Shown piece by piece: positions 3,825-48,905 of a stretch of 64,000 bases of DNA (the first letter of the stretch is position 1; the number at the start of each line of letters is the position of its first letter). The notes under the pieces were generated by a model. That model searched no databases, was not told the origin of the DNA, and saw only the letters and a program-made list of their open reading frames with translations. Source of the DNA: Cymbomonas tetramitiformis (lineage: Eukaryota; Chlorophyta; Pyramimonadophyceae; Pyramimonadales; Pyramimonadaceae); NCBI GenBank assembly GCA_001247695.2, contig LGRX02014126.1, positions 1-64,000 on the forward strand, read 5' to 3'. Both the position numbers and the translations under genes were made by a program.

Positions 3825-3896
3825 TCTGGGATTGACACGATGACAGTGAAATTGGGCTTGAAATCACGATGAGAATGAGTACCAGATGTCCGGGGT

Positions 3897-16137: not shown

Positions 16138-16142
16138 ATTAC

Positions 16143-17349: not shown

Positions 17350-17366
17350 ACTCCTCCCCCCTCAAG
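17350..17366 (-). promoter_or_regulatory. Polypurine tract of element A1
   Basis: On the minus strand CTTGAGGGGGGAGGAGT immediately precedes the LTR start TGTACCGGG. This is the expected position and composition of the plus-strand DNA primer of an LTR retrotransposon and fixes both element orientation and LTR edge. Confidence 0.75.
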
Positions 17367-17372
17367 AGCGGC

Positions 17373-20500: not shown

Positions 20501-20507
20501 CGCAGCA

Positions 20508-28301: not shown

Positions 28302-29780
28302 ACCTCGAATAGACTCCTCTGCCACCAAGCGGTCCACCAAGAGAGCGTAGGTGGAGGTCTCGGTGGTGTGCAGCGGACGTATCTCGGGGAAAGAGGTACT
28401 GCCGGCCCCGCTCAGAATGTATCGAGCGGGACTCAGCCCAAGATTGTCACAGATCTTCAGGGCTGCCGACAGACCATAGTGCGAGGAGGTGACCTCGGGT
28501 AACGTCGCTGTAGTGGCCAATTCACCCGGGGGCACCCACAAGGAATCCCCTTGGGGAGTGACCACTAACAGCCGTGTAGTTGACGTCGACGGCCCCGCCC
28601 CCCCAGCCGGGTCACCATCAGGGTCGTCACCAGGGTCATCTCCAGGGTCGTCACCAGGGTCGTCACCAGGGTCGTCCTCCGTGTCCTTATTATAGTCGCT
28701 ACTCCGGCTTTTCGATTCTTCATCGGCGGCAAGCGGCTTCCCACCATTCCAGCCCAAGGTAAGCTGGCCTCCGCTGGTTGCATGCTGGGAGACGCTGGTT
28801 GCAAGCTGCTGGAACCCACTGGTTGCATGTTGGGGCTGGCGTGTTGCATGCCCCGCATGCCCCGCATGCCCCGCATGCCCCGGGGCATACCCTGCTGCAT
28901 GCCCCACTGAGCCGGGTACATGCTCAGCCGGTTGTGTTGCATGCCCCGCATGCCCGACTGAGCCGGGTGCATACTCAGCCGCTCCCGCTGCATGTTGTGG
29001 CTGGCCTTCACCAGACCCGTACACCACAGGGGTGTCCAAGCTTGCTCGACGTCTTCTCGCTAGACGCCGTTCCTCGGCCACCGCGCCCTCCGTTGCGGCA
29101 GCCTCTAGCTGAGCCATTTGGTCGCGTAAGCTCCCCGCCTCGGTCTCTACGAGGAACCGAGCGGTCTCGGCGCGGACTACCCTCTGCAACATTTCCTGGT
29201 CCGTCAACTCCTTCCTCCGATGCCTCTCCAACTTGAGACGCCGCTCTCGTCGCTTGCGGCTATGCTGAGTGCCCGCTGCAGACTCATAGCCAGAACCGGA
29301 TGTCGTGCTCCCAGGTTGAGACGCGTGAGCTTGGGAGAGGTCCTCGGTCACCACGTCTTGGGGCTCCGTGCGTATTGGCAAGGTTCTCCCAAGAGTATCT
29401 GGCCCCGAAGCACGGCGACGATGATGCGGCTGATGGGTTATCACACCCTCGTCAGGAGAAATATCGGTGTGAGGAATCGGTTCCATCAGCGGTGTCGGAT
29501 ACAGTCGTTGGGGGACCACTCTCATGTCTGTCGCCACCGCCCGCTCTGCAGCCGCCATGCGCTCTCGCGCTGCCCACCATTCCCTAGCACGTGCCTCCGA
29601 CGCAGGGTCAGCTCCATATACTGGAGGTGGAGGCGGTGGAAAGTAAACGGGTAGTGTCCATGGATCCCCGTAGGTGGTCGACATCGGCGCGGGAGTGTAC
29701 GGGGCGTGTGTCAACACGCCGGGGGCATGGGGTAGCGGCGAGCCTGTGGCATAATGGTGTGGCATGCCAAAGGGTTGTGG
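28302..29780 (-). CDS. Element A1 gag, N-terminal part
   Basis: The frame runs from the LTR repeats directly into gag. Order: Pro/Tyr-rich start (VYFPPPPPPVYGADP), basic linker, a predicted coiled coil (KLERHRRKELTDQEMLQRVV...LRDQMAQLEAAA, about 29240-29080), a GHA repeat block (about 28970-28840), a run of GDDP repeats (about 28680-28610) and a conserved LWVPPGEL...KICDNLGLSPARYILSG block ending at the insertion of element X. In the unoccupied element it continued into the capsid part at 26690. The fusion of LTR repeats to gag suggests deletion of the leader and most of the 5' LTR, so the true start codon is uncertain. Confidence 0.65.
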
Positions 29781-29989
29781 CGGCATACCCATGGGGCATA
29801 CGCCTCGGGGCATACCCATGGGGCATACGCCTCGGGGCATACTGTACCCATGATGCTTGGGGCATACGCCTCGGGGCATACCCATGGGGCATACGCCTCG
29901 GGCCATACCCATGGGGCATACGCCTCGGGCCATACCCATGGGGCATACCCATGGGGCATAGCCCTGAGCTGTCCGCGCCTCCCGGTACA
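29781..29989 (-). repeat. 5' LTR remnant of element A1
   Basis: It begins at 29989 with TGTACCGGGAGGCGCGGACAGCTCAGGGC, matching the 3' LTR start at 17349, and continues with six or seven units of the 26-bp array, one disrupted by ACTGTACCCATGATGC. The AT-rich 690-bp remainder of the LTR is absent; sequence passes straight into gag. Deletion by recombination within the repeats is the simplest explanation. Confidence 0.75.
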
Positions 29990-31662
29990 ATGACACTGCA
30001 CCGGCTCCACGCCTTCGTCACGTTCACCAACGACACCACGTGGGACTTCCTGGTGGGCACAGGTCCCCTGAAGAACGCGTTGAAGCTCACCATCGACCTC
30101 TACCGGGGTATCGCCACCTCTGAGGCCGCGGTATCGTTGGGCATGAGGGAGAAAGTCACGCTACCACTGATTGAGCTGACGCCGTCCGCCGACGTGAGGA
30201 GCAAACGGAACGAGGACCCCAGGGTGTGCCTGGCGACGGAGATCTTTGACGACCGTGCTCCGCCACGACACGAGGCTGCGCTTGCTGAGGCGGTGGGAGA
30301 GGACCGTCTGGCCCTTTCAGGAGAACGATGTGCATTCTCACAAGGACATCCTGAGCTAGCTCACCTCCTGGAGTCGTTCCTGGAGGAGCTCAGACTGAAG
30401 AGGTTCAACCAGGAGGAGCGGGAGATGCTCGACGCACGTTGCCAGTCCATGGTGGAAGCAGGTGTATTACGACCCAGCTCCCTGATGCAAGCCGAGCTCA
30501 CTGGACGAATCAGCCTGCACGCCGAGAGCTCCAGGTTCAAACCACCTGCGCCTGGTACATCCGTGACGGACCAGATGTTGGGCCTGCTGCAAGCGACATC
30601 GTGCAGTCAACGAGAGGCTAATGTGGCGACCAGGAGCGAGTGGTCTGATGCTGAGGAGCCAGTGAGCGCGACGCCCATCACGCCGGCAAGGCTGATGGCA
30701 ACCCAGACCGACCCTCGCTACCCAGATATGACGCAGGAGCAGGAAGCTGGGAGCGACACAGAGTATGTGTTGGCCAGCACGCAACCGTGGGCGGGTATGG
30801 CAGTGAACCCATGGGACAGTGAGAACAAGGATGGCAGCTGGTCTCAGCAGCGCTTGTATGTCGATCGCACTGGCTATGCTCGCTTGTGCACACTTTGCGA
30901 GGAGGACGAAGAGGACGTACCCGAAGCAGACTTCGTGCGCGTCACGTTCGCACGCTGTGGGGATAAGAAGGACGTCCTGGAGACGGAGCTGCTGTGGCCC
31001 GACTTCACGTTGATGGACCATCAGAAGGTCGACAAGGAGACGAAAGTGGCCTCAGACACCTGGGCCACGCGTGCGAGTTGGAGGAAGGACAGCGACCAGG
31101 TCGCGCTTCCTGACTGCCAGGCCCATCGAGACGCCGGGCGGTACACCATGGCGGACGTCCAGGAAACCCTCATTGCGCAACAGGTGTACCCCACGGGAGT
31201 CGTGACTGGCACCCTCATGTGGGACAGGAGGGCGCGCCAGTTCTGCGTGCTCAGCGAAAAGACTCGCGTGCAGTGGGAGCTCGTGGAGAAGATGGTACGT
31301 CACACCATGGCTGGCAGTGCCAGCATGAGCCCCATGTGCAGGGTGACTGGCGACGTGGCGAGTTCCAGCTGCCTTTCTACTACGAGGGGGACCAGCGCTG
31401 GCGATATCAGCCCCTGAAGTACGTCCAGAAGGTGGACATTACTAACCTCCGAGCTCGCCTGAAGGTGAAGTACGACGAGGTGGTGGCCGGTGAGCAAGCC
31501 ATCCCGCTGCTGACGCTATCAGATGTGACGTGCAAAGTGGGAAAGTTCTACCCGGTGACAGATGGAGAAGGGGGGGATGGTGAAGTGTTCAGCACCAACG
31601 CCGCCGCCCTGGAGTTTCTGCACTTGGGGGAGGGCAGGGTGATGCTCGCCGCATGCAAGACA
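29990..31662 (+). pseudogene. Gypsy B1 protease end and downstream polyprotein
   Basis: Resumes B1 exactly after the A1 insertion: MTLHRLHAFVTF and LVGTGPLKNALKL match B2 at 50150-50230, and ICLATEIFDD-like (CLATEIFDD) matches CLTTEIFFG. The rest aligns loosely to B2 up to FYPVTDGEGG...LHLGEGR (B2: FYPVEDGLGG...LHLGEGR). The protein is of unknown function beyond the protease. One frameshift (near 31340-31420) is visible. After about 31662 homology to family B stops and element A2 begins; no RT of B1 is present. Confidence 0.7.
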
Positions 31663-31689: not shown

Positions 31690-33091
31690 ACCTACGGAGC
31701 TAGGCGAGACCCGCGCCACCTCGACCGCCGGCCCCCAAGCACAAGACAGTCAGGAGGGATGAGGCGGGGCCATCTGGCCATGCATCAGCGCTGCCAACAT
31801 CAGTGTCCACAGGCAAGACCCCCAGGGGGGACAGTGCAGGGCCATCTGGTTCTGTGCCGCAACCAACCTCAGCCCCGCTGCGCATGAGGCATCAGACGTG
31901 GCCCAATGGGGATTTTGACCCTCAGAGCCGGGAGTATCACCCATCGGTGTTCCAGGGCACCTACGAACCTGAGTCGGACACCAACAGCGAGAACACCATG
32001 GTCGAAGCTCTGACCACTCCCAGCTGCACGCCGACTGTATCAGAGTACCAGGCGAGCGTGCCAGGCCTTCTTTGGAGCTTCAAGGAGTACACCCTGCAGG
32101 ACCAGCAGAAGAGATTCTTGGAGCGAGCGGCGGGTATCTTCGGGTCCGACCAGGCCTGGCACCAGCGTTACGTCGAACTGGACGTATTCTTCAGTGACCT
32201 GGCGGTATGCTCCCTGACTCAGGGCTATCTGGAGAACACGCATGGCGAGGCCATCGCGTTGAAGCAGGCGCCGAGTGAGACCGCGGCAGAGTACTTTTCA
32301 CGGTTGGAGACCCGCATGGCCTCGGTCAACTTCCTGGCTGGCAGGGTCCCCAACTGCGTGGAGATGTCCAACCTGTCCATGCTCTCCACGTACCGCCGAG
32401 GGCTGAAGTATGCGTCCAAGGTGATGCGGCGCCTCAGGGCCATCCACCTGGACGTCTCCAAGCCAGAGGAGTGGGAAAGGAAGGCTGCCTCCGACGACAT
32501 CCCGGGCACCCACAACGCCCTGCTGAAGATACGGGAGATCGCTGAGGAGGTGGAGAATGACATAGATACGGAGACAGCTCAGAGGCGTACTGCAGACCGC
32601 CCCCCCGAACTGTCTCCTTTGCAAGCCCATCTCCCCGTCCCCCCTTCTTCAGGCGCACCCCCTCCTCAAACCGCCCAGCGCTCGCCATGCTGGAGAACGG
32701 GCCCACTACTGCCGCTGCCGCAGCGGTCACCCCGTTACCACCACCACCTGGTCTCTCCCGCACTGACACGCCGAGGGTTCGCCGGTGTTTCGCCTGCGGT
32801 TCCACGGAGCACATCGTCCGCAACTGCACGGACGAGGCCAAGCTGAAGGAGTGGAGAGCCAACGCCCCTGCCCGGCTGGCAAACTCTCCTGGATTCGTGG
32901 CCGCTGTCGTCTGGGCCATCGAACAGCAGGAGGACCTCTCCCGGGTGGACGGCGTTCCTGAGGAGTTCTCCGAGGAGGTTTTGGCGCTCGCAAGCTGTGA
33001 GGACGAGCAGGGCTACCAGACCCTGGCGGCACTCGCTGGCATCGAACTCGTGGAGGGTGACGGCCTCCCCCCAGTTGAAGATGACGAATGA
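31690..33091 (+). CDS. Element A2 gag with CCHC zinc knuckle
   Basis: The frame starts with a Pro/Ser-rich region (DEAGPSGHASALPTS), then helical capsid blocks (SFKEYTLQDQQKRFLERAAG, WHQRYVELDVFFSDLAV, AAEYFSRLETRMASVNFLAG). A frameshift near 32700 leads into the perfect zinc knuckle CFACGSTEHIVRNC (32783-32824) and an acidic tail ending at 33091. It is homologous to A1 gag (25782-29780) but shorter, without GHA arrays. It lies directly against the end of B1 with no 5' LTR, so A2 is 5' truncated. Gag would form the particle and bind element RNA. Confidence 0.8.
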
Positions 33092-33500
33092 CCGGCCGGC
33101 GACCAGTCCCCGACCCTGCCCTTCGGGGAAGTGAGGTCGTCCCCGACCCTGCCCTTCGGGGAAGTGAGGTCGCCCCCTGGCGATCAGACCCTCTCCACCC
33201 AGGAGAAGCGGTCAGAACCAGAAGAACCCCGACGCGCACGAGGACGCAGAGATCCTTGGGGCCATCGACCCCATCCCAAGAGCGTGGCCTTCACCTCTGG
33301 GACACGCCTGCGACACACCTACCGCTCAGCTGGTGCCCCGCCACTACTACCAGGGGATGACCTGACCAGCCACCCCCTTGCAGAAAGTGGCCCTTTCGAC
33401 GAACCGTCCCTACCTCTCGATGATGGCCCTGCATATACACAGGCAAGAATCGAGGGTCGGAGGGGCCGGTGAGTCCCCCGACATAGGCCCCCCGTCATGG
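33092..33500 (+). other. A2 inter-ORF spacer with a 33-bp tandem duplication
   Basis: A 31- to 33-bp phrase containing CCCCGACCCTGCCCTTCGGGGAAGTGAGGTCG is repeated twice at 33106-33171. Short open frames exist, but none has a recognisable domain. It corresponds to the gag-linker junction of A1. Confidence 0.4.
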
Positions 33501-35219
33501 GTGGCAACCTTGGAGAACCCCGTGATCCCCGCCCCCAGTCGCGCGCTGTTCTGCCATTACCAAATTATCAGTCCAACCTCGCGGATACGCGGAAGAGGCT
33601 AATAACTGCGTGGCATTGGAAGAGGGAGCTGTACTCCCTACCCCTTGAGGTCGCCATGCAAAAGGTCCGCAGAGCTCTGCGTAAATCCCCAGAAGCTGCT
33701 AAAGCTCTGGTGGATAAGATGTGGGAGCGCACCCGCAGTCGCATACGCTCTGGGAGCCGATCACCGGACGGAGGAGCACGTGAGCCGCGCCAACCAGCTG
33801 GCGGAGAGAATGCGTATCGCCCGCGAACCTCAAGATCGCAGAGAGGGTCATCAGCGCATGGCATTGTGGCACCTTCTCTCGCACGACGGCCGCCAACAAG
33901 CCCTCGAGCCCTTGGGCATCAGCTCCTCCGACCTCTACGCGGCATGGAGGGAGCTGTCACCCGCCGAGCAGCTGGAGGCGATCGCCACCTCGAGTCCGGA
34001 CTCTTCCCCCGGCAACAGACTGTGGGAAAAGGAGGGCGTGCGAAGAGCAGCAGCGAGGTCTTCGGCATCTCTCTGCACCCTGGACACTGAAGTGGGCACG
34101 ATACCCGGGACGACAGGGGATGTGGGCCTGCCTGGCGCCTGGTGCAGTCTGCACGCGGTACATCAGTACAAGATGAGGAAGCTGGGCCCCAGCCCTTTAG
34201 GCGCATCTCCTTCCTCGCCCCCGCTGGACGAACCCACCCCGGAGGGGACCTCTTCGCTCCACGCCGCTGACGCGCCGACCACCCCGGGAGGAAACCTTGA
34301 AGATCCACCCGACCGCGCTCAATCTTCGCTCGAAGTGGCAGAGGAGACCTCTACCTCCAGTTCGCTCTGCTTCACCCAGCAGATGACCACCGTCAAGACG
34401 CACGAAGCAGAGGACGTGCTGCCCCGCCTGGACAGCCACCCCATCGCTGAAGACCCCGGAGCAATGGAAGAAGACTCCTCGGTCGATTCGCTCCGCTACA
34501 CCCAGCAGATGGCGGCAGCTGGGACCCATGAGGCGAGGGCTGAAGGGAACCACCTGAGCTCCCACCAACTCGCCCTCGACCCCTCCACCAGCAGCCCCCA
34601 GCAGAGTGACGAGGATCCCCTTAACCACAGTGGGACCCCCCACACCAGTCTCACCACCAGTGCCACTACCCATGTGAGCCCCACAGTGAGCGGTACTACC
34701 CACGTGAGCCCCACAGCAAGTGGCACAACCCATGTGAGCCCTACAGTGAGCACTACCCACGTGGGCCCTACCACCAGCGGCACCACTCATGTGAGCCCCA
34801 CTGCCAGCGATACCACTCATGTGAGCCCCACCGCCAGCGATACCACTCATGTCAGCCCCACCCCGAACGAATGCATTTCAACGGGCGCCCTGCTGACAGC
34901 GAGCGCAGACAATCTCATCAGCCACCCGACCGAAGACATCGACTTGCTGGATGAGGAGTTCTACGCCGCGTGTAGGCAAACGGCGAAGGAGTGTCGCGAC
35001 GCCTCGGACAATCTTCTCCCCAACCTCAAGTGCAAAAGCATACGCACGGATGGGGGAGTTCAGTGGAAGACCGACATTGAGGGGACTCTCGCAGCGGCGC
35101 ATGACGAAGAGGGACCGCTGCTGCTGGTGTTCTACGCGACCCTCAGAGGGCACACGGTCAAGGTGTTGATTGACTCGATCGGGAGCCTCCGACAACTTCA
35201 TCTCGGAGCAGAGTGCTAA
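33501..35219 (+). pseudogene. Element A2 linker protein, Thr/His repeats and broken protease
   Basis: Overlapping frames (33497-34090, then 33645-35219) encode a basic helical part (WHWKRELYSLPLEVAMQKV, LYAAWRELSPAEQ), two related SLCFTQQM / SLRYTQQM blocks, a TTHVSPTASG-type decapeptide array (34650-34865), and the protease start up to VKVLIDS. At 35177-35181 four extra bases (a TCGA/TCG duplication) lie inside the catalytic Asp-Ser-Gly, so the frame is lost there and continues in the frame starting at 35170 (GASDNFIS). The protease is therefore dead in this copy. The order matches A1 22324-25740. Confidence 0.75.
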
Positions 35220-37010
35220 GCGATGTGGCCTCACGACGCGGGCTGGCTCCGAGATGCGAGTCACCCTAGCGGACGGATCTGTGAAGATCACAGGCGCCAC
35301 CGCGTACGCCAAGTTTAACACGCACACTACCACGGGCACCTACACGGAGAACGCCCTGGCCCTTCGGATTCTTCCCCTGGGCATACAAGTGGACGTTATT
35401 CTCGGCGGAAGATGGCTGCGCAGCCACTCCCCCGTAACCCTGGGTTATGAGGGAAACGGTGCTGTGTCCTTCCTCAGAAAGTCCCGCGGCGGCAAGACTG
35501 GAGATCGCGTCACCATCACAGGTTGCTCTCCTGGGAAGGCACCTGGAGACAAGTCTCCAAAGGGCACTGCTTGTGCGGGATTGGTGGACGAAGTGTTTCT
35601 GACCCCTGCCCAGCTGAAGAAGTACTTGGTGTACGCGGAAACGCAAAAGATGCGCGGCAACGATGACCCCGAGATACAACCCGCCTGGCTCATGATGGCC
35701 GAGAAATCCCAAGGCGATAAGACCTCCGCCTTCGCAGCGACGGCCGTCGACACTGAAGATGCCAGACCTGCTGCGGATACTGAAGACGCGGACGTGGACC
35801 CCGAGTGGACTCTCAAGTTCCAAGACTTCTGGGGCCCGGAGTATGAGAAGGAGATGACGACTGCCCTGCCGGACATCGATGGTCTGAGACACGACCCTCA
35901 AGACGAGGCCAACATTCACCTGGACCCTGAGCTGAGCAAAAAGGGGCCACCTTGTCAGCGCATCTACAAGAAGTCCGCGGAGGAACTCCGCCAACTCCGA
36001 GAGCGCGTTGAGACCTTGATGTCCAAGGGTTATATCCGACCCTCGTCCAGTCCATACGCCGCTCCCTGCCTGATGGTCCCCAAACCAGGGAATCCCAAGG
36101 AGTTGCGACTGGTGATCGATTATCGACTCCTCAATCGCCAGACAGTGAAGGACAAGTACCCTCTCCCGGACATCCAGATGATGTTCGACGAGATGCAGGG
36201 TGCTAAATTCTTCGCCTCATTCGACGCGGTGGATGGCTTCTGGCAGGTCCCGATGGCCCCAGGAGATGTTGAGAAGACTGCCTTCACCACCCAGATGGGA
36301 TCATATGAGTGGTTGGTCATGCCACAAGGGCTGCAGAACTCTCCGTCTCAATATCAACGACGGATGCAGCAGGCTCTGGGTCATCTCCCTTTCGTCCGCA
36401 TCTTCATTGACGACGTGGTCGTTTTCAGCAACACCGCCGCTGAACACTACGAACACGTCAAGCAGCTGCTTCTGACGTGCAGGGAGAAGGGCGTCTTCCT
36501 GAAGAGGTCCAAGCAAGTGCCAACTGCTGAAGAAGTCCCTGCGCTTCCTTGGTCACTGCATCTCTGCGGATGGCTGCAGACCCCAACATGATAAGGTGGC
36601 TGCGGTAAGGGACTGGCCCGAGCTGGAGACAGTCACCCACGTCAGGCAGTTCCTGGGTCTGGCGGGGTACTATCGCAGATTCATACACTGCTTCTCCGAG
36701 ATCGCCCAACCCCTCACCCGGCTGACCAAGTCAGACGTACCCTGGGAATGGGGCCCCATGCATGCAGCAGTGGGCTTTCGAGGAGCTGAAGAAGGCCCTC
36801 ACCTCAGCACCAGTACTCGCCTTACCCAAGATCAAGGGTGCCACAGACGGTACAGCACCTTTCGTGGTGCAGACGGACGCCAGCGGCATCGCCCTTGGGG
36901 GAGTACTGATGCAGGACAATGGGGATGGCATTGGCCTGCGCGTGATAGCGTATGAGAGCCGCCAGTTCTCAGCCGCCGAGCAGAACTACCACACCGGTGA
37001 ACGAGAACTA
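35182..37010 (+). pseudogene. Element A2 protease end, reverse transcriptase and RNase H start
   Basis: Protease C-terminus (VTLADGS, LGIQVDVILGGRWLRS) leads into Ty3/gypsy RT: GYIRPSSSPYAAPCLMVPKP, LVIDYRLLNRQT, FASFDAVDGFWQVPMA, PQGLQNSPSQYQRRM, catalytic FIDDVVVFS, with the full N-terminal RT segment that A1 lacks. Frameshifts near 36515 and 36755 break the thumb and connection. Further on LGLAGYYRRFIH, VVQTDASGIALGG and YHTGEREL mark RNase H, which is cut at 37009-37010 by a MITE. RT and RNase H would make cDNA from the element RNA in cytoplasmic particles. Confidence 0.85.
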
Positions 37011-37539
37011 CAGTAGGTCGCGGTCTATAAGAAATGGTATCTACAAGAAACCAGCCGCTAGTTTTCTCTCCAAAAGTTAGAAAAAACGGTAAGAAATCAC
37101 CCGCTAGATTTTCCATGGGAGAGGTCTTGAAAATCCTCCGATTAAGAAAAAACTGACGCTAGACGGATTCATCAACCTAATCAGTATATATAGTCCAAAC
37201 ATATAGGGTTTATTTATCAATCATATAGGGCTTATTTGACAGTTAACAGTGTTCATCCACCGCAGTAATCGTCCGCCATACCATGCATGCCACGGGTGGC
37301 CGAATTACAAATGTGGAGAATAAAGTATCAGCCCGGCTCGGCAGATAAGAAATCAACGCTGAGCTCCAACCTACCTGGCATCTCATGTCAAAATTAACAA
37401 AAACTCGACGCTATGCGTGACAAATATGGCATCCTCCAATAAGAAATTCACGACGCTAGAGACGAAAATCTGGGACCGTCAGATTAAGCGACCAGCGCTA
37501 GCGAAAATTTTACTTTTTCTTATAGACCGCGACTTACTG
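37011..37539. mobile_element. 529-bp MITE (Tc1/mariner type) in A2 RNase H
   Basis: Inverted ends CAGTAGGTCGCGGTC... and ...GACCGCGACTTACTG extend about 27 bp (CTATAAGAAA next), and TA flanks both sides (37009-37010 and 37540-37541). Taking it out with one TA restores the RNase H frame in phase. The interior is non-coding, with repeated CGCTAG motifs (for example GACGCTAGACGG, ACCAGCGCTAGCG). It shares the CAGTA terminus and TA target with the MITEs at 14246 and 60868, but the interior differs. Confidence 0.8.
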
Positions 37540-38016
37540 TAGGTGCCCTGCACCACTGTACCACAGTTACCTGGCGGCACTATCTCATTTTCACCAACTT
37601 CCGCATTCAAGGCGATCACCGCCCCCTTGAATGGCTGATGGAACCTGGTAGGGAGCTCAGCCGCAGGCAGGCGCGCTGGTATATGAATCTTGTGGAGGTG
37701 GGGGTCCCGCGCATGGAGTACATCAAAGGGGCGCTACTGCTGGTACCCGACGCCTTGTCTAGACGACCTGACTTCAAAGACAAGGACGTCCGCGAGGGTT
37801 TGAAGAAAGCAGGAGTGATCGACCCCACCTCGGACCTGCCGAAAGACCCACTGGCAACTCTGAAGTCTGAGTGCTTCTCCAGCGCGCCACCCGCAGCCCA
37901 TCCCCACTGGGCCCAGACGGTTGACTGCTGGCTTTCAGCAGTGGAGACCCTCTCCGTGGCGGAGCAGGCCATGGGCTTGGGGGAGACCATCGCCCTCGTC
38001 AACCCGAAGCTCTATT
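37540..38016 (+). CDS. Element A2 RNase H C-terminus and linker
   Basis: Continues RNase H after the MITE: CTTVTWRHYL, DHRPLEWLMEPGRELSRRQARWYM and KGALLLVPDALSRRPD, all closely matching A1 near 21390-21170. It is followed by a linker (EGLKKAGVIDPTSDLPKDPL) that in A1 is extended by GHA repeats but here is short. It stops at 38016, 32 bp before the start codon of the methyltransferase-integrase frame; in A1 the two parts are joined through the repeats. Confidence 0.8.
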
Positions 38017-38048
38017 GAGGGGCGAAAGGGGATGACCTCGACTTCGAC

Positions 38049-40412
38049 ATGCCTGGCTGGCCCGAAGCCAAAGGTGTGAAGCCGACAGAAACCCCACGCG
38101 ACCCCCCTGACCGAGCTTCACCTCAGATGAGGATAACGAGAAGCATGTCACGGACTGGAAAGGCTTCTGCGACCCCAGCACCCCCACAGTCAGTACTGCG
38201 GAAGACGCAAACGCCTACACCACGGGCTGATGCATCGACAGCGCCTGCTGACAAGACACCCGCGAGTTCATCACCCCCAGAGAAGGCACCCCAGCAGTCA
38301 GCACCATCATCGACCTTTTCCCCACGAAAGCGACGAGATCGTCACCCGGAGGACCCGCAGAACTGGCGCGTTCGCGCAGAGTACTCCTCGAAGTACATCG
38401 ACAAGTTCGGGCCCTTCGACGTGGACGCCTGTTGCGACTTCGGTGGCCGCAACAGACAAGCGGATCGATTCTGGACTGACTGCCTCTCTGAGAAATGGAG
38501 GGGTCTTCGGGTCTGGTGCAATCCTCCATACAACTCCAGCCACATTACTGTGGAGGCGATTTTGAACAAGTACATCGCAGAATGGAAGGCAGACCCGGAG
38601 AACACTTCTGCAGTCTTCGTCCTGCCAGATCACCAGTCCAAACTCCCTGCGTGGCGTAAGCTATTCAGAAAGGCTAATATGCAGATCGTGGAAGTCGTCC
38701 CTACTCACGATGACAAAGGCGAGCCCAATCAGTTCTTCGAGAACCCAGACGGGAAGGCCTTCGATCTCCGCTGGCCTGTCTTGATAGTGCACGCCCCTCC
38801 CGCCAAACCACAGCCGGCACGCGTAAGACATCCACGAGCGACCCCAGCTGTGATAAGGAAGGGTGAGGCAGCGGACTTCAGAGACACGATCTCTCAGCAG
38901 TCAGACTCAAAGTTCCTGCGTGCTCTGAAGGCGGAGTACACCCGTGAGGGATCACTTCGTTTGCTGCGGGAAAAGGTGAAGGCAGCGCCACACCAGTGTT
39001 TACAGGACTTCAGACTGGTGGGTGAAGTGGCTTGGAGAACTGCGGCGGGAAGATATCAGTTGGTGCTGGGGGAGGATTCTCCACTTCGGGAGGTGGTGAT
39101 TCGTCATGCCCACGAGTCGCTGTCTTCAGGTCACACTGGAAGAGACAAAACTCTGGAGAGGGTGCTGCGACGCTTTTGGTGGCGTGGTGCTGCGGACGAC
39201 GTGGGCACCTGGGTTGCATCCTGCGCGGTGTGCCAGTCGGTGAGGCCGCGGGGAACCTACCCGGATGGATTGCTAAATCCTCACAGCATCCCGAATAGAC
39301 CGTGGCAAGATGTTGCAGTGGACTTCGTCACCGGCTTACCAGTATCAGAGAGAGGCAATGACGCTTTCGTGGCCTTCACGTGCAAGCTGACGAAGATGGT
39401 CCACGTCATACCGATGAATTTCGGTGACAGCTCTGCAGCCGTGGTGGCCAGAATCTACTTCGATTCGGTGTGGCGCTTGCACGGTGCGCCTATGAAGATT
39501 GTTTCTGACCGCGACCCGCGGTTTCAGGATGCCTTCTGGCAGGAGCTTATGAGACTGATGGGCGTGAAAGTGGCTCGCACCACTCCGTACAACCCTCGGT
39601 CTGACGGGCAGGCGGAGCACATCAATCGGGTCATTGAGGACATGCTCAGGTCCTTCGTGGATGCTAATGTGGAGGACTGGGATTTGTTTACCACTAACGT
39701 GGAGCTCGCGATCAATGACTCCAGAAGTGAATCCTCTGGCTTCACGCCATTTGAGCTGGTGTTTGGATTTTCGCCGCTGTCTCAATTGGACCTCTTCCTG
39801 GAGGCCGCGCAGTCCACCGCTGGACGACGAACAGGGGGAGTGGGTACCGCCCACGAAGTGGCCGCGAAATTTTCGTCGCAACTGCGGGACGCCAGACAAC
39901 GGTTGGAGCTAGCTCAACAACGACAGCGCGAGCAGTTTGATCGCAGGCACGGACAGCGGCAGTATGCTGTCGGGGATCTGGTCTGGATAGAGGCGAAGCA
40001 TCTTACCGAGAAAGTAATGGATCGCTCCATCTGCAGGAAGTTGACTAAACGCTGGCATGGACCAGTCCCTGTAACCGAGCGCTTCTTCAGCGATATGCAA
40101 ATGATCATGCCGGAGGCCGACAGAGGAGCCCCAGTAGCCTACCGCTTACGCCTCCCCCCTCACTGGCGGATACACGACGTGTTCGCTCAACATCGCCTCA
40201 AGCCATACACCAGCGGTCAGGACGCCTTCGCCGCGCGCGACCACTTGGCAGTGCCTGAAGAGGTGGTAGTGGACGGTCAGAAAAAGGCACATGTCGAACC
40301 TCGAACGCACCCTCGCACGTCGAGTGCGATCTGTGCGAGGGAAAGAGGTGGAGGAGTGGAAAGTTCGCTGGACTGGCTACTCCAAAGCCCACGGCCAATG
40401 GAGGACCCGTGA
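38049..40412 (+). CDS. Element A2 N6-adenine methyltransferase fused to integrase
   Basis: An intact 787-residue frame. Residues about 1-100 are a Pro/Ser/Thr linker. Residues about 105-255 are a Dam/phage-type DNA N6-adenine methyltransferase: FGPFDVDACCDFGGRNRQ, then RVWCNPPYNSS with catalytic NPPY near residue 158, and TSAVFVLPDHQ. Residues about 350-400 are the HHCC integrase zinc domain (HESLSSGHTGRDKT...CAVCQ), and the DDE core has Asp near 425 (VDFVTGLP), Asp near 487 (SDRDPRFQD) and Glu near 523 (GQAEHINRV). A basic C-terminal domain follows (FDRRHGQRQYAVGDLVW; HRLKPY). All key residues are present. The methyltransferase would act on adenine in DNA, the integrase on element cDNA, both in the nucleus. 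Confidence 0.85.
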   Translation: MPGWPEAKGVKPTETPRDPPDRASPQMRITRSMSRTGKASATPAPPQSVLRKTQTPTPRADASTAPADKTPASSSPPEKAPQQSAPSSTFSPRKRRDRHPEDPQNWRVRAEYSSKYIDKFGPFDVDACCDFGGRNRQADRFWTDCLSEKWRGLRVWCNPPYNSSHITVEAILNKYIAEWKADPENTSAVFVLPDHQSKLPAWRKLFRKANMQIVEVVPTHDDKGEPNQFFENPDGKAFDLRWPVLIVHAPPAKPQPARVRHPRATPAVIRKGEAADFRDTISQQSDSKFLRALKAEYTREGSLRLLREKVKAAPHQCLQDFRLVGEVAWRTAAGRYQLVLGEDSPLREVVIRHAHESLSSGHTGRDKTLERVLRRFWWRGAADDVGTWVASCAVCQSVRPRGTYPDGLLNPHSIPNRPWQDVAVDFVTGLPVSERGNDAFVAFTCKLTKMVHVIPMNFGDSSAAVVARIYFDSVWRLHGAPMKIVSDRDPRFQDAFWQELMRLMGVKVARTTPYNPRSDGQAEHINRVIEDMLRSFVDANVEDWDLFTTNVELAINDSRSESSGFTPFELVFGFSPLSQLDLFLEAAQSTAGRRTGGVGTAHEVAAKFSSQLRDARQRLELAQQRQREQFDRRHGQRQYAVGDLVWIEAKHLTEKVMDRSICRKLTKRWHGPVPVTERFFSDMQMIMPEADRGAPVAYRLRLPPHWRIHDVFAQHRLKPYTSGQDAFAARDHLAVPEEVVVDGQKKAHVEPRTHPRTSSAICARERGGGVESSLDWLLQSPRPMEDP

Positions 40413-40593
40413 CAAACTCGAACGCGGAGGCCCACTTCAACAACTTCGTGAATTCGAACAAGCGAGACTGCGCATGGAAGCACAAGTTCGCGACGAAGCC
40501 ACACGGCGGCGTGAGCAACGTGGCCGTCATTCTGCTCAAGCTGGAGTGACGCTTGCACATCTCATCACCAACCCCTGCGATGAACTGGACTAG
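40270..40593 (+). CDS. Element A2 chromodomain
   Basis: In a frame shifted against the integrase end, the product from about 40291 reads NLERTLARRVRSVRGKEVEEW, then KVRWTGYSKAHGQWRTRDKL and QLREFE. This is a chromodomain (beta strands, KxxWxGY core, W, C-terminal helix) as found after integrase in chromoviruses, where it steers integration to histone-marked chromatin. A +1 slip near 40280 separates it from the integrase, perhaps a decay mutation. The same domain is half deleted in A1. The frame ends at 40593, 10 bp before the methyltransferase frame. Confidence 0.75.
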   Translation, partial: WTVRKRHMSNLERTLARRVRSVRGKEVEEWKVRWTGYSKAHGQWRTRDKLERGGPLQQLREFEQARLRMEAQVRDEATRRREQRGRHSAQAGVTLAHLITNPCDELD

Positions 40594-40602
40594 CTCGAAC
40601 AG

Positions 40603-41367
40603 ATGGAGCATGATACCCTTCTGCCGTGGGAGCGTCAAGAACTCGCAGAAGATGGGTCATTAGCACTGGTGACGGAGCTAATGGCAATTCAGACAGAGAC
40701 AACCCGTGTGCCCAGGATCCTTGTACTTTTCAGCGGTACTGGCTCGGTAGAGAGAGAATTCCTAAATTGCTTCCCCACCGCTTCAGTGGTGACCCTCGAC
40801 TCCGAGCACACCTGGCATCCCACTCATGTGCATGACATCTTACAGTGGGACTACAAGGAATACCCGCCTGGACTCTTCGATGTCGTTTGGGCCAGCCCTC
40901 CCTGCAGGCAGTATAGTCAGGCGCGCACCACTGGAGGACCTCCTGACCTTCCTCAGGCTGACAAGATCGTGCGGCGAACATTACAGATCATCGACTACCT
41001 AGAGCCGAAGCACTGGTTCATGGAAAACTCCAGAGGTCGCTTCCCCAACGCGCTGCGGCTTCGCCCCATGATGCGCCAGCTCCCCCCTCCGCTGGTGTGC
41101 ACCTACTGCATGTACGGTATGCAGTACATGAAGCCCACTTGCATATGGACGAACTCAGCACCACCCACGCCCTTGCTGCGCTGCACTGCTTCGACACCAT
41201 GTGCGTGCAGATGGGCGACCGGCAGCCATCCGAAAACTGCACAGCTGGGACCCCATCCGCAGCAAACTGGAGCGGGTCAATCCGCGAGTGTATACCCTGT
41301 ACCAGCGCCCCTGCTGCGACAACTTTTCCGACATCTACGCCTCCGCAAGACTGAAGGCCCGCTTTAG
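40603..41367 (+). CDS. Element A2 C5-cytosine DNA methyltransferase
   Basis: The 254-residue frame shows motif I RILVLFSGTGSVEREF, an acidic strand end VVTLDSE, motif IV FDVVWASPPCRQYSQA with the catalytic Cys, motif VI HWFMENSRG (ENx), and KPTCIWTN as a motif VIII-like block, ending with YPVPAPLLRQL. Family members elsewhere in algae and their viruses have this compact form. One frame disturbance is possible around 41160 (TNSAPPTPLL), because the A1 copy reads differently there. It is the last gene before the polypurine tract and LTR, the same position as in A1. Expected activity: SAM-dependent methylation of cytosine in DNA; target sequence unknown. Confidence 0.85.
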   Translation: MEHDTLLPWERQELAEDGSLALVTELMAIQTETTRVPRILVLFSGTGSVEREFLNCFPTASVVTLDSEHTWHPTHVHDILQWDYKEYPPGLFDVVWASPPCRQYSQARTTGGPPDLPQADKIVRRTLQIIDYLEPKHWFMENSRGRFPNALRLRPMMRQLPPPLVCTYCMYGMQYMKPTCIWTNSAPPTPLLRCTASTPCACRWATGSHPKTAQLGPHPQQTGAGQSASVYPVPAPLLRQLFRHLRLRKTEGPL

Positions 41368-41540
41368 ATTCCAAGTGGCACCCTTCTTTATGACAGTGGT
41401 GCCCTGGTAGCGGTAGGCAATTTATGCTCGAAGAGGAACCAGAGAACCTAAGAACTGGAGCCAAGAAGGAACCAGAAAACCTAAGAACTGGAACTTAGAT
41501 AGGTACCTTAGCGGAGTGATCCCAGGAGGTAGACCACTCC

Positions 41541-42048
41541 TAAGGGGGGGAGAGTTGTGCCCGGAGGCACAGCGTGAGCCGATATGTCTATGCGTCTGTA
41601 TGTGTGTCATCGGGAGTAATATGGGATTGACACGATGACAGTGATATTGGGCTTGAAATCACGATGAGAATGAGTACCAGATGTCCGGGGTATGACAGTA
41701 TGACACTATGACACTATGACACTATGACACTATAGTAGTATGACAGTACTGTGGGGTGGTCATCGTGGCACTTAGTCAGACCCTCGGGGAATGGCAAGAT
41801 TCGCATCGGGATCGGAAAGACAATGAAATCGAGTATCAGATGTTGGGGGTATGACACTATGACACTATGACAGTACAGTAGTATGACAGTACTGTATGAC
41901 AGTCATCGTGTCAGTCCGTCGACGTGACATCTGAATCGAGAATGACGAATCGGAATTCAAAGAAATGAGATCGGATCAGGAGTCGAACGTTGGGCCGTGG
42001 TGTGACATCGGGTGCCAGGTGGTTGACCCTGCAGCCCGAGTTACGAGT
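41541..42048 (+). repeat. Element A2 polypurine tract and truncated 3' LTR
   Basis: TAAGGGGGGGAGAGT (41541-41555) is a polypurine tract directly followed by the LTR start TGTGCCCGGAGGC at 41556. The LTR matches 3477-4288 (without the nested insertion) but stops at TTACGAG (42047), about 8 bp before the TTGTCACA end seen in the other copy, and passes into unrelated sequence. The segment 41420-41520 before it carries a duplicated ACCTAAGAACTGGA phrase. Confidence 0.75.
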
Positions 42049-43361
42049 GAATAAGTAGAGCACTTGAGAAGTGTTTAGCCTTCAGAACTCGGAACCGAAC
42101 TATCGTTTGCACCTCAATCTGGCCCTGATCCAGTATATTATAAAAACCGAATTGTGTACCTTTGCACGTTTCAACCAAAAACATCATTCCGAGTATACGT
42201 CGTAGTGCCCCTGGCACACGGATCATCGAGCAGGAATTGCCGGGATCTGGGTGGGCAGCCCTGTCCGAGAGTTTCGGTTCAGGCCCCCATTCAGACCCAA
42301 GTCCAATCTGAGTCTGTGTAGACCTGAGTACGGGTAGTAGTACAATACCGTAAGCGTTCGAGGTTCGTAGGTTCTAGGTTTAAGTTTTGTCTTCGTAATT
42401 ATTCTATATCACAAATACATGGTGGAAACAGCAGCTCAGGCAGTGGGGAACCGCTGCCGACGAGGAAACAACGGATCACTAGACTCGTATAGAAAGGACA
42501 TAAATACTGAGTCTAGGTCACTAGCTGTACACCGAGAATGATACACTGGATATGACACCTACTAGAATGCCCTAGTGACACAGTGAAAACGTTGAACGCC
42601 GTAGGGTTTGAGCGAGGCAATCGGGTATATCAAAAGATATATAGAATGAATACACGACTCTCAGGCTATCTAAGCTCTGAGGCCGTCACTAGGCAATCAT
42701 ATCGTGTGTCACAGTCTAAGCTACCGAAGTCGAACTACTGAGTACAGGTAGGAAGTCACTGTACTGTCACTGTCACTGCCATACGTCATACGTGATACTG
42801 AACTACTGAATCTCAGCACACCACCTCGGCTGAGGTGGCACAAGAATGTGAAACAGGTAGCTAATGCAAACTAAGAGGTCCCCGTCCACGGATCAGAACA
42901 ACATCAACCAAAGGCCCGACCTGCCGCCATCCCCGCTTCCGGCTAACCCTCTAAACCGAATGCTATAGTACTAGTATATGCATGCCAACTAGGTGGACTG
43001 CCACAAGGATATGAAAATAGTAACTGGTCTCCGCCAGATCTCGCTCCCCGATAGATACTCTCATCCGATGCTGCTCAGCTCGACTGTCAACCAGTACTCG
43101 AGGTCATAGAAGATGTCAAAGAAGTACAGGATGTAGTCAAAGGCCAGAATCCAGTCAGATGTGCTTAAGGTCAGAGTAGAGCTGTCGGTGTCTAAGGTCT
43201 CATAGGGCAGGTCATAGGTACCAGTCTGTCCACGAACACAAAGTCCAGTCCAGAAGAGCACCACGTCAAAGGGCATCAATCCAGTCAGACCAGAAAGACC
43301 CCTTGCCCGACCGCTGCCGGCTCATAGGCCTGCACCTCAGCCGGACAGAGGACCAGAGAAC
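42049..43361. other. Non-coding interval, possibly copia 3' LTR region
   Basis: No sustained coding frame. It lies downstream (minus strand) of the copia RNase H and could include its untranslated region and LTR, but I find no second copy in the window and no clear TG...CA boundary. Short repeated phrases occur (for example CACTGTACTGTCACTGTCACTG near 42758-42780). Confidence 0.4.
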
Positions 43362-45140
43362 CTAGGAGTCACCCGCACCACTGGCGGGGCGCGGGCGGAT
43401 CACGTCCATGAAGGACTCGGTCATGCTGATGATCACCCGCACCTTGTCCCTGAGGCCAGGAAGCGGCTTGGTGAAGATATCAGCCAGGTTGAGCAAAGTA
43501 TTGATGTATACAGGCACTAGGTAACCAGCACACACCCACCCCCGAAAGCAGTGAAAACGGATCAGCACGTGCTTAATTTTGGTGGATAACATGACATTCA
43601 TCAGGATGGAGGAGGCCGCCTGGTTGTCAATCATGACAGCCGCCGGGAGCTCCAGCCTGGGAATGAAGGGTCCAGAGGTACCATACATGCCGGACCGCTG
43701 AGAGTGGTACTCCCGCGGCCCGTCCTCATAGCCCGTGCCGTCAAATGGCACCGGCACCGCATGAGGCAGGGCATACAGGCTGTTGTCAGGAACAGGTTCA
43801 GCCTCCCGATAGTGTAGGGGGGAGGCGGGGCCCATCTGACCATAACCCATAGCATGATTCCCGACGAACGTGGCCGCTCTCTGCATCCAAGAAGTGTCAG
43901 CTGCAGGGAAGGCCGTAGACAGAGCCAGAGCAGACACACCCGGCTCCTGCTGCGTGATTCTGATAAAACCGAACATCTCCACAATCATATGGATAGCAGA
44001 CATGGCCCGCTGTCCAACCACAGAGGCAGCCACATACTCAGATCCAGTGGAGGACATCTCAGCATCGGTCTGGCGGGCACACACCCAATGAAGCACCATG
44101 CCGTTGAGGAACACAATGCCTCCCGAGTAGGAGAGGCACCCGTTGAGCTTGTCACGAGCATGGTCAGCATCCGAATACACCTGTATTGTGAGCACAGAAA
44201 GCGGTGCACTGGGGTAAGCATAACGGATACGGTAGTGCCGTGTGAAGTAAAGATACTGAGCCACTCTCTGAAGTGCCTCCCAGGCCTGAGCTGAGGGGCA
44301 CGAGGAGAACTGTGCCAGATATATGACTGAGTAGTAGACGTCTGGCCTGGTGCACCGTGCAATCCACAACAGGGACCCGAGCAGTGAGAGGTACGGGGTG
44401 ACAAGGGTGAGATCAGGGTGCTCCGGCTTCTGGATAACGAGGTTCACATCCATCGGATTGTGAAAGGTTTTGGCCGGAAGCTTGAACTTGGACATGAGCT
44501 CCTTGATCTGCCTGGTTTGGGACAGTGCAATGCCCCACCGATCATAGTCAACCGCAAGCTGCAGGACGGCTGTCATACGGCCAAGATTCTTGCTCTTGAA
44601 TGCCGCCTGGAAAGCTGCCTAGAAAGCCTGGTGGAATGCATCATCACATGTCAGCCCGAAGTCATCCACGTAGACAGCCACGAAGGCTACGAACACAGAG
44701 GTCACAATATAGTAGAGGCACGGGTCATATGTGGACTGGGTGAAGTGCATTCCCTGATAGGTGAAGGACTTCATGAATTTGTTGGCCAGCTTCTGTCAGG
44801 ATGCACCAGCCGTCCGTAGCCCGTAGAGAGCATAGAGCAGCTTGGCATAGCCATATCTGCCCTTATACTTATATCCAGAGGGGAACCGCACATATATAGG
44901 AACCTCCAGACGGGCATGAACAAAGGCCTGACTGACGTCAAAGTGATAGACCATAACCCCCATACCAGCAAAGATAATAGACAGGATGAAGAGAAGGCGG
45001 AAGGTGGGCAGGTCTGCTACCGTGCACGCAGTCTCAGCCTGGGTGTAGCCCCAGTGCCACGTGGCCGCCACGGCCATCCGAGCTTTATGAATTTGGACGG
45101 GTGGCAGGCCATCCCGTGGCTTCCGGGGTTTGTTCAGCAC
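43362..45140 (-). pseudogene. Ty1/copia reverse transcriptase-RNase H remnant
   Basis: Minus-strand frames give copia-type pol. 45140-44796: VQIHKARMAVAATWHWGYTQ, MVYHFDVSQAFVHARLEVPI and YAKLLYALYGL (RT fingers and palm). In another frame near 44640-44700 is a DDFGLT-like catalytic region. 44576-43362: LLGSLLWIARCTRPDVYY, VYSDADHARDKLNGCLSYSG (RNase H Asp), SSTGSEYVAASVVGQ and HVLIRFHCFRGWV. A stop near 44620 and frame changes near 44800 show decay. Gag and integrase are missing, so it is 5' truncated near 45180. An insertion rich in Pro/Gly/Tyr lies between SEYVAA and the last RNase H block. Confidence 0.8.
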
Positions 45141-45181
45141 AAAGATTGTAACAAACGCCGGCTTCTCATGGTACCGGAGCC

Positions 45182-45750
45182 GGGTTTGTACAGCTAGTGA
45201 CAGGCGTGACAGTTATGACGAGTATGATAGACCTCGCGCGGGATGACTGCTCGAGAGAAACAGACTTGGTAAAGAAGATATGGCCATTGCCAGATGACCA
45301 AGAAGTGATAAGAAGATATTACAGTTACAATGTTGCCACTGACGTGTCAGTCAGAAGATGGGGAACGGTAACATTATTAAAGCTGGCATAGAATAGTGAC
45401 TTTTTATTGGCAGATGAAGATTTCAGGGCGGAAGCCTGTTACAGTTTTTGCAGATGTGACAATGACTTGAGATATAAGTAAGCTCTGACCACAGGTCAGG
45501 ACTAGTGGACTCATTATTGTTTTGCCTTCGCAAGTGCTAGGCGGGCTGTTCGCGTGCCAAGCGCTAGACCCTTTTTTGTTGATTTTGTTGATGTTTGATG
45601 AATATGTTATACTGCTGTTTTTATCTTTTTACAAAACAATAATGTCCTGCGCGGAGCGGCTTTTTATTTCGATACGAATTCAGAAGTGAGAGGCTCTTTG
45701 GCGACAAGTAGACAGCGGTTGAGAACAGCGGGTTCGGGAGACAGGCGACT
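45182..45750 (+). other. Gypsy B2 5' end: LTR/leader candidate with 13-bp inverted arms
   Basis: The segment between the copia remnant and the hairpin repeats has no gene. CATTATTGTTTTG (45512-45524) and CAAAACAATAATG (45632-45644) are perfect inverted arms, and equivalents with a compensated base change lie at 4497/4679. LTR limits were not found, and no 3' LTR of B2 is present for comparison. A promoter is likely here but not identified. Confidence 0.45.
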
Positions 45751-47312: not shown

Positions 47313-48905
47313 TTGACCACGGAGGGTGAGGCAGAGTTGAGCGCCGCCGCTGTCCAGTCCGCAGAACGGGAGGCACGGCGATTGGCTCGGGAGAGGAGCA
47401 CTCAGAGGCGAATCACTGGCTATATGAGCACAGATGGGTCGGCTCCAGAAACCAGTCCCCCGACGCCAGTATCAGCAGCAGCAGCAGCAGCAGCAGCAAG
47501 CGCAGCGCTCAGAGGCGTAACAGCTTCAGTGCCCCCAGCCAACAATTTTCTGTTTGCACTCGATAGCTTAGAGGATATGGATCATCCTGACAGAGACAGT
47601 GATGGACTTGACAAGGTGGACTCGAAGCTTCGCTACACTGGTGGCAAGAACGAGGATAGAGCAGCTTTCAACAGGCGTTTTGTGGAGATGGTGGGAAGAG
47701 TACAGCGAGCCCACGAGTCCAGGATACGTAGGCACATGAGGTCAGCAGCTTTCCAGGGTCTCAGGGCAGAAGCAAAGCAGGCTCTCAAGAATAACGCTCA
47801 GCCAGGCTACAGATCATTATGGGATCTCCTGCCCTCGATTTTGGTAGGAGATGATCATGCCACTTCGATCGCTCATGAGTGGTGGTGCGCTGCGTACGTG
47901 AAAAATGGCGTCATGGCTTCCCACGCGTTTCACATCTTGAAGGATATCTCTGAGAGGGACTGTTTCCAGGGCTCTGTGCGCTGTGCACTACCCCCTTTCC
48001 ATGAGATGAAGCCAGGGGAGACATGGGCAGTCTGCAGAGAGTTTCAAGATGGTGATGCTGATGGTGAAGTGTCTGGAGAATGGGAAGAGGTGGGAACCTC
48101 GACCAAGGGCCTCACAGGCGTGGATGGTACTGAAGATTCTCACTACTTCTGGGCTCTGAGGGCTTTCGTTGCAGAACTTGAGGCCAAGTTTCTGATGAAG
48201 GGCACCAAGGAGAAGGAGGACCTGCTGACACTGAGTGGCCAAGTCGCAGACCCCTGAGCAAGATGGCCTCGCGTATGTGAAAAGCTGCCGGCGCAGGGAG
48301 TCCGCGCTGAACGCTGGCAAGAAGGTGGAGGACGTCATCGTCAGGCAGGACATCGAGGAGTGCGTCAAGGGGCTGCGCATCAAAGAGTACAAGGAGCGCG
48401 TTTCAGAGCAACTGAGAGTCAGCCACCCCGCCCCCAACAAGGTGACGTGGGAGGACCTGGAGATCATTGTGGAGGTCCAGGACAAGCTGAAGAATGACAC
48501 TGAAGCTTGGGCGTTGACTCTCCAGCAGGAGCTCACGCGCAGGTCTTAAAGCTGCGCGTCTTCTCCTGCTATGAGGCCAGGCAGCTGGGACTTGACCTCC
48601 CCGAGCTGGTGACTGCCATGCGACGCTCTGGTTCTGCCAGGAGGACTGGAGACAGGCGCAAAGACCACAAGAAGAAAGAGCCGTCCCAACCCGCCAGTGA
48701 TGACGCAAACAAGAAGCCACCAAGGGAGGTTAACAACGCTGAGAGGGACAAGTCCACCTACAGCAAAGTTCCACCCCCTGACGCCTCCAAGGACAAGCAG
48801 TGCAAGTACTGCTTCACGCGCATGTGGCATACCCCAGAGCGCTGCTACACTGGATGTCGTGACTCGAACGTGCCCCCGGACTTCCACAAAATCCGAAAGA
48901 ACTAG
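47313..48905 (+). CDS. Gypsy B2 gag with zinc knuckle, two frame changes
   Basis: Starts MTTEGEAELSAAAVQSAERE, then an Ala run from a CAG microsatellite (47468-47493), the capsid-like part (SKLRYTGGKNEDRAAFNRRF; LKDISERDCFQGSVRC; KGLTGVDGTEDSHYFWALRA), EIIVEVQDKLKND and a C-terminal knuckle relic CKYCFTRMWHTPERC (C-x2-C-x5-H-x4-C, one residue longer than the usual spacing). Frames change near 48240 and 48540, and a stop at 48903 separates it from the next frame. It is homologous to B1 gag throughout. It is the first gene after the hairpin leader. Confidence 0.8.

Follow-up and report, generated by a model that had tools for sequence, protein, structure and literature searches.

The window analysed here, i.e. 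the whole stretch of 64,000 nucleotides at positions 1 to 64,000 (forward strand) of contig LGRX02014126.1 of the green alga Cymbomonas tetramitiformis (GenBank assembly GCA_001247695.2), contains element A2, in which an N6-adenine methyltransferase (Dam) and a C5-cytosine methyltransferase (C5) accompany the reverse transcriptase (RT), RNase H (RH) and integrase (IN) of a retrotransposon. A2 itself is dead, but it belongs to a long terminal repeat (LTR) retrotransposon of the Ty3/Gypsy, chromodomain type that has been active recently. Its features, mapped with Pfam profiles and with the polyprotein of an intact relative (P0143), are as follows:

31999-42218 (+): element A2, a degraded Ty3/Gypsy chromovirus copy without its 5' end; the family is represented by the complete C19802 element
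32561-33088 (+): Gag zinc knuckle (CCHC) region (PF00098, 21.7 bits, cut-off 20.8)
35179-35409 (+): aspartic protease (PF13650, in frame 35170-36588)
36076-36519 (+): reverse transcriptase (PF00078, 96.6 bits)
36762-37010 (+): 5' part of RNase H (tblastn with P0143 residues 1183-1265, which are the Pfam RNase H site of P0143)
about 37010-37490 (+): insertion of ~0.5 kb splitting the RNase H coding region (gap between the matches to the intact relative)
37566-37697 (+): 3' part of RNase H (PF17917, 31.9 bits)
38331-38828 (+): phage-type N6-adenine methyltransferase (Dam) domain with NPPY (PF05869; phrog_111; alignment with five phage Dam enzymes; AlphaFold2 model)
39078-39596 (+): integrase H2C2 zinc finger and catalytic core (DDE) (PF17921; PF00665 below its cut-off; residues checked)
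40128-40208 (+): integrase C-terminal SH3-like domain, Tf2-1 type (PF24626, 36.4 bits)
~40297-40461 (+): chromodomain, out of frame with the A2 integrase and in the C5 frame (tblastn of P0143)
40594-41364 (+): C5-cytosine methyltransferase of the small viral type, with PPC and with ENS replacing ENP (PF00145, 28.3 bits; 130 homologues; AlphaFold2 model of relative P0014)
41542-41555 (+): polypurine tract ahead of the 3' LTR (read from the sequence)
41556-42218 (+): 3' LTR, TGTGCC...GGCACA (86-89 % match to both C19802 LTRs)

By blastn, the complete C19802 element matched the window with 85-89 % identity across 31999-37010 and 37540-42218, and gave no match before 31999. Relative to the intact relative, the A2 polyprotein carries five frame changes as well as in-frame stops ending at 33472, 38018 and 40593. 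Since this copy is dead, only its relatives can act. A preliminary description of the locus, made from its letters and open reading frames, had proposed the order RNase H, Dam, integrase, chromodomain and C5, which was borne out by Pfam together with tblastn using P0143. The NPPY, integrase DDE and PPC residues that it named were all present on inspection, and the EN pair was too, albeit as ENS, whereas ENP stands in 14 of the 15 copies under comparison, all but A2. On the A2 frames, H2C2 scored 64.6 bits, and Dam and C5 exceeded their Pfam cut-offs, whereas the integrase core did not (rve 24.7 bits, cut-off 32.6) and no chromodomain match was obtained, although PF00385 is present in P0143. 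The lack of a Pfam chromodomain in A2, as in the second element A1 described below, is explained by frames broken at that place. The chromodomain lies outside the 797-aa frame, in another one, and the two separate A2 products that had been named are not natural ones, because intact copies put every domain in one 2537-aa polyprotein.

When the host assembly (851.7 Mb, 25,745 contigs) was searched with the 797-aa frame of A2, 57 of 23,411 candidates were scored, at 89-100 % identity and including the copy in the window itself. The match was free of stops in 38 of the 57, and a frame of 2537 codons was found at four. This query spans Dam and integrase, so elements without Dam cannot show up in the census. 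Fourteen copies on as many contigs, selected for long frames, were fetched; the 2537-codon frame was open in 4/14, and the order RNase H-Dam-IN-chromodomain-C5 was repeated in all 14. In P0143, Pfam recovered the order protease-RT-RNase H-Dam-H2C2-integrase-SH3-chromodomain-C5 in a single 2537-aa polyprotein, with Dam at 29.3 bits (cut-off 28.1), the chromodomain PF00385 at 28.3 (25.1), C5 at 22.3 (22) and the integrase at 23.7, i.e. below its cut-off of 32.6. Eight shorter census loci (L081-L088), one being the window itself, were scanned with fixed patterns in each reading frame separately and showed NPPY in 8/8, PPC in 6/8, ENP in 4/8 and the chromodomain motif in 5/8; given this way of reading, the misses mix decay with variant spelling.

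The search for full-length copies proposed in the preliminary description yielded a complete element of 13,789 bp on contig C19802, with two 672-bp LTRs (TGTGCC...GGCACA), a polypurine tract and a 5-bp target duplication, AATAT, at each side. Aligned with each other, these LTRs share 653 bases, 14 of them substituted, and a further 40 columns are gaps (Kimura two-parameter distance, K2P, 0.022). A further copy, C1405, likewise carries a pair of LTRs (K2P 0.020, 13 substitutions in 669), although its 5-bp flanks do not match, and its 5' LTR is adjoined by TGGTATCA, which we take to resemble an initiator-methionine tRNA primer site. The other three copies that were extended showed a single LTR each within the stretch examined. 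C19802 is 99.2 % alike to C22811, whose contig starts inside the element, across 10.6 kb; since this likeness stops at the edge of the 3' LTR and the flanks differ, transposition was recent.

Both methyltransferases have been kept under constraint. For dN/dS, 15 copies (the 14 fetched and A2) were projected on one intact copy and summed over all pairs, so that the ratios come from copies picked for open frames, from non-independent pairs and from domain limits set by us, with insertions dropped by the projection. The core gave 0.01 for protease, 0.02 each for RT, RNase H and integrase, and 0.03 for the C-terminal part of the integrase, and the other parts gave 0.05 for Dam, 0.06 for C5, 0.04 for the chromodomain and 0.11 for the linker, while the tether from RNase H to Dam, which serves as an internal control, reached 0.43. 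These values indicate strong purifying selection on the Dam and C5 domains. Catalytic motifs were likewise retained among the 15 copies, i.e. DVDACCD in 15, NPPY in 14, FSGTGS in 14, PPC in 15, ENP in 14 and FIDD in 14, with the integrase D, D and E in 15/15 each and the complete set in 11/15.

The window holds a second element of this architecture, A1, on the reverse strand:

17419-23655 (-): pol part of element A1, a diverged second family, degraded, with the order protease-RT-RH-Dam-IN-(partial chromodomain)-C5 (Pfam, tblastn)
19915-20304 (-): A1 Dam domain (PF05869, 49.1 bits)
17419-18239 (-): A1 C5 methyltransferase in a broken frame (PF00145 19.5 bits, below the cut-off of 22; tblastn)

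The A1 chromodomain is a remnant detected by tblastn only, without a Pfam match. Between A1 and A2, synonymous sites are near saturation (pS 0.67-0.79; Dam 0.74, C5 0.79), while non-synonymous differences (pN) are 0.28 for Dam, 0.24 for C5, 0.27 for protease and 0.20 for integrase. Therefore, both methyltransferases have been constrained along with the core enzymes. Both ends of A1 (16725-17431 and 29782-29990) carry a 27-bp tandem array (GGCATACCCATGGGGCATACGCCTCG-like) with a common unique edge and several frames open; these arrays were considered as LTR parts and rejected, the common block being a repeat within coding-like sequence. Within the A1 coding region, 20515-24200 and 28791-29031 (-) hold arrayed short repeats that read GHAPGHAGHA-like in one frame, as assessed by eye in comparison with the A2 family.

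Polyproteins matching the Dam region were found in sequence databases, 10 of the 13 being named Cymbomonas tetramitiformis and the other three coming from a JGI source, EukProt and ENA; these environmental and EukProt relatives may be the same species or its kin. P0001 (Cymbomonas) and P0002 (JGI) carry Dam, SH3, chromodomain and C5 on one chain, with Dam, chromodomain and C5 above the Pfam cut-offs. P0012 (Cymbomonas) keeps the entire order, its C5 being slightly under the cut-off (21.4 bits against 22), and has diverged from the A2 family at 50 % of its Dam positions and 44 % of its C5 positions. The C5 of P0010 scored 18.2 bits, below the cut-off of 22, and P0006 holds the start of a C5 as judged by eye. 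Over six elements (15 pairs), Pearson correlations of distances were 0.80 for Dam-IN, 0.69 for C5-IN and 0.66 for Dam-C5, which is only supportive of co-inheritance, because the truncated C5 model of P0006 inflates distances, P0002 nearly belongs to the A2 family and the pairs share elements. Separated or shuffled domains, considered in the preliminary description, were not seen among the copies examined, which came from the Dam-integrase query. In the protein model P0019, C5 precedes Dam, and in P0106 (EukProt) a family C5 fragment is joined to a PF01555 N6_N4_Mtase domain (47 bits) in one gene model; both arrangements look like gene-model joins, although P0106 may also be a further capture.

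The Dam domain of A2 matched PF05869 with an E-value of 4.4e-7 and 30.2 bits (cut-off 28.1) at residues 116-181 of frame 38019-40409, so that the absence of an adenine methyltransferase profile, weighed in the preliminary description, did not occur. The cut-off was exceeded by seven Dam domains (30.2, 49.1, 29.3, 32.1, 32.8, 41.1 and 37.0 bits), and matches to phrog_111 reached 43-62 bits. By tblastn, the A1 Dam matched 747 phage records at E-values up to 0.01, all below 60 % identity and with a highest identity of 45.5 % among the 30 listed, while the A2 Dam matched three phage records only, at E-values up to 0.001. Four element-type Dam domains and five phage enzymes all have in common a D, an L, a W, VW and NPP, followed later by another W, and in an alignment of 20 sequences PP never varies, while N and Y are almost always kept. 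The best of five AlphaFold2 models built from these 20 sequences had a predicted local distance difference test (pLDDT) score of 85.8 (range 64.0-85.8) and a predicted template modelling (pTM) score of 0.84. The Dam alignment gave no match when compared with solved structures, and the single sequence gave only three weak matches (E 0.027-0.13), all to proteins of other types. Candidate Dam relatives in viral contigs were discarded, as 12 stretches fitted a pattern and none was confirmed. The Dam with the top local identity to that of A1 among the 30 listed is from Edwardsiella phage eiAU (L116, 1-1116), where it directly adjoins a second gene annotated as a DNA methyltransferase, the visible part of which has no Pfam match.

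The C5 domain of A2 matched PF00145 (E-value 1.5e-6, 28.3 bits, cut-off 22) within 40594-41364. Beyond the kin of the elements, the 120 listed of its 130 homologues are mostly proteins of about 200 residues; relatives were also found in viral contigs (at least 255 among 600 candidate stretches) and in 10 phage records, and DNMT1 chains match the element C5 weakly. The neighbours of the viral C5 relative L014, inspected by eye, gave no pointer to where it comes from. Across 76 aligned C5 sequences, neither the PPC cysteine nor the EN pair varies. A tree was calculated from the 58 of 126 matching sequences with enough domain coverage, on which the eight rows labelled as element enzymes form one clade (99/89), nested among stand-alone enzymes. 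Three of these (P0015, P0018 and P0022), which are without a chromodomain, were labelled by judgement from similarity. The tool counts two changes instead of one because P0020, an unlabelled short fragment, falls within the clade. On this tree, which holds no host DNMTs, the topology would fit a single capture of C5 from a virus-like source rather than from a host DNMT. The AlphaFold2 model of the chromodomain-C5 protein P0014, from the same number of sequences as the alignment (76), had a mean pLDDT of 78.8 and a pTM of 0.61, with the C5 core mostly above 90.

The family shows the traits of a Ty3/Gypsy chromovirus, i.e. TG...CA LTRs, a 5-bp duplication, protease-RT-RH-IN with H2C2 and DDE, and a chromodomain C-terminal to the integrase. 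Assignment to the DIRS elements was rejected on account of the DDE integrase, the direct LTRs and the lack of a tyrosine recombinase among the 14 Pfam families matched. In the published record, Dam-like enzymes are carried by DIRS elements (PMC5890265, PMC3266345) and C5 enzymes by Gypsy, DIRS and LINE elements (PMC5890265). We found no report of both in one retrotransposon in the open-licence literature, although subscription papers and Repbase reports may hold one, and to this extent the suggestion that the pairing may be new stands.

Among the closest parallels, KnitGypsy-Dnmt3 of Klebsormidium nitens is likewise a Gypsy element with a C5 inside Pol under purifying selection (Ka/Ks < 0.2). 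It differs by a Dnmt3-related C5 and DIRS-like repeats, and the section on it in PMC5890265 makes no mention of an adenine methyltransferase, whereas the A2 family has a small viral-type C5 behind the chromodomain, a Dam partner and direct LTRs. SymbioDIRS-Dnmt3 and SymbioLINE-Dnmt are also retrotransposon-borne C5 methyltransferases, yet on a DIRS or LINE backbone, of host type and with no Dam described in the passages on them (PMC5890265). DIRS1-like elements share the Pol order RT-RNase H-methyltransferase (PMC3266345), the enzyme being termed Dam-like (PMC5890265), but use a tyrosine recombinase, and their description in PMC3266345 gives neither C5 nor chromodomain. Chlamyvir-type chromoviruses, noted in Cymbomonas in 2023, resemble the A2 family as Ty3/Gypsy elements with a chromodomain pol (PMC10675990); the main text of that paper, in contrast, mentions no methyltransferase. 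High-coverage Cymbomonas scaffolds reported in 2015 bear a chromodomain, RNase H and a cytosine methyltransferase, while Dam and the joint architecture are not described in the passages on them (PMC5741210); these scaffolds are probably fragments of the A2 family. Orchid Ty3/Gypsy elements have also captured a modification enzyme, but this is an m6A RNA demethylase (an eraser) and not a DNA methyltransferase (PMC9289625).

Elsewhere in the window, Copia (Ty1)-like RT and RNase H frames, judged by eye, lie immediately 3' of A2 in opposite orientation (43362-45212, -). Pieces of A2-family LTR, 84-92 % identical and distant from A2, at 3476-3540 and 3807-4289 are probably a broken solo LTR. A 1.5-kb direct repeat (26707-28262 and 58522-60028, 94 % identical) adjoins the gag-side part of A1 with its first copy, and a further Ty3-like RT with ~31 % identity to the A2 family lies at 55019-56017. 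Finally, 14614-16266 and 48093-50154 are 65-68 % alike over parts, the former containing a 550-aa frame that may be the gag-protease of another retroelement.

Our preferred reading, in which we place an evenly balanced confidence, is that Dam and C5 would act in cis, methylating the element's own cDNA and its new insertion. Whether cleaved off the polyprotein or still attached to RT-RH and to the integrase complex, the two enzymes would methylate the double-stranded cDNA and the insertion site, Dam setting N6-methyladenine (6mA) and C5 setting 5-methylcytosine (5mC). The position of Dam after RT-RNase H and that of C5 after the chromodomain suggest a division of labour, in which Dam would work where double-stranded cDNA forms and C5 at the integration complex. 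The new copy would then reach the nucleus already bearing host-like marks, with 5mC hiding it as self or shielding it from nucleases, 6mA perhaps holding the element promoter open, and the chromodomain guiding it to chromatin that tolerates extra 5mC. Elsewhere, 6mA accompanies active genes in species encoding AMT1 (PMC12695648), and SymbioDIRS-Dnmt3 enzymes can methylate CG de novo, with methylation of cDNA proposed in that work (PMC5890265).

Several observations weigh against this reading. Of the 169 positions of the PF05869 profile, the Dam match covers 3-81, which is no more than its first half, and four proteins scored 24.7, 38.7, 24.2 and 21.6 bits against the TIGR01712 equivalog, far under its 97.05; Dam is therefore a diverged member. 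With ~210 aa the C5 domain is small, and a C5 enzyme borne by a LINE element failed to methylate DNA when placed in yeast (PMC5890265). Eight of the 13 polyprotein gene models (P0003, P0004, P0005, P0007, P0008, P0009, P0011 and P0013) lack C5, each stopping before its expected position, a count that reflects gene models and not contigs. At fourfold sites of the family copies, a CpG-specific C-to-T excess was not clear, as transitions (CpG 111/253, other 206/584) and transversions (CpG 35/253, other 64/584) were up alike; CpG decay was therefore rejected as a footprint of self-methylation, and the copies show no evident sign of heavy 5mC. Nor does anything found separate an effect on cDNA from one on host chromatin.

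Among the alternatives, it is unlikely, if conceivable, that both methyltransferases protect the cDNA or the genomic copies against site-specific nucleases from the host's algal viruses and virus-like elements, in the manner of a modification set guarding a virus from its own restriction enzymes. Chloroviruses do pair 5mC and 6mA methyltransferases with nucleases, and Dam and C5 are both of viral type, but RNase H and integrase are the only nuclease domains among the Pfam matches of the polyprotein (P0143). The Cymbomonas genome is home to numerous Polinton-like viruses and to a giant Algavirales virus that has integrated into it (PMC10675990). We regard as a little less probable again that the element limits itself, the chromodomain and C5, which adjoin on one chain, laying 5mC at heterochromatic insertions for quick silencing and a tolerated load, with Dam in a secondary or opposing role. 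Slowed retrotransposition was raised as an alternative in PMC5890265; however, the equally strong constraint on Dam would be left unexplained, and the decay expected from CpG methylation is not clear in the copies.

The partial Pfam coverage of Dam and the small size of C5 would also suit domains kept as nucleic-acid-binding or structural modules of the polyprotein, which we consider improbable, given catalytic motifs that are nearly invariant in the family, the PPC cysteine and EN invariant in the 76 C5 sequences, and, for Dam, PP invariant in 20 sequences and NPP common to the five phage enzymes. That the two enzymes lie together by chance or through an assembly chimaera might be suspected from window copies that are broken and amid other repeats, but this was rejected and is given practically no weight, since the order is the same in 14/14 copies on 14 contigs, in A1, P0001, P0002 and P0012, with an open 2537-codon frame; the claim that both methyltransferases truly belong to one chromodomain element is thereby upheld.

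Returning to methylation in cis, a broader and more tentative proposal, which we hold as rather less probable than its converse, is that this lineage built a two-letter writing kit (6mA and 5mC) from viral genes and linked this kit with an integrase and a reader of chromatin, whereby new copies would arrive pre-marked. It is a puzzle why retrotransposons carry the class of enzyme that hosts use for silencing them, and two unrelated DNA methyltransferases with constraint close to that of RT and integrase make it testable in a single polyprotein, for which the young copies are ready material for long-read maps of 5mC and 6mA. In other prasinophytes, the two marks differ in places and functions (PMC12695648), and interspersed repeats make up ~68 % of a published Cymbomonas assembly (PMC10675990). 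If the proposal is true, the dual code would set the later expression of each new copy and may reshape the methylome of this very repeat-rich algal genome.

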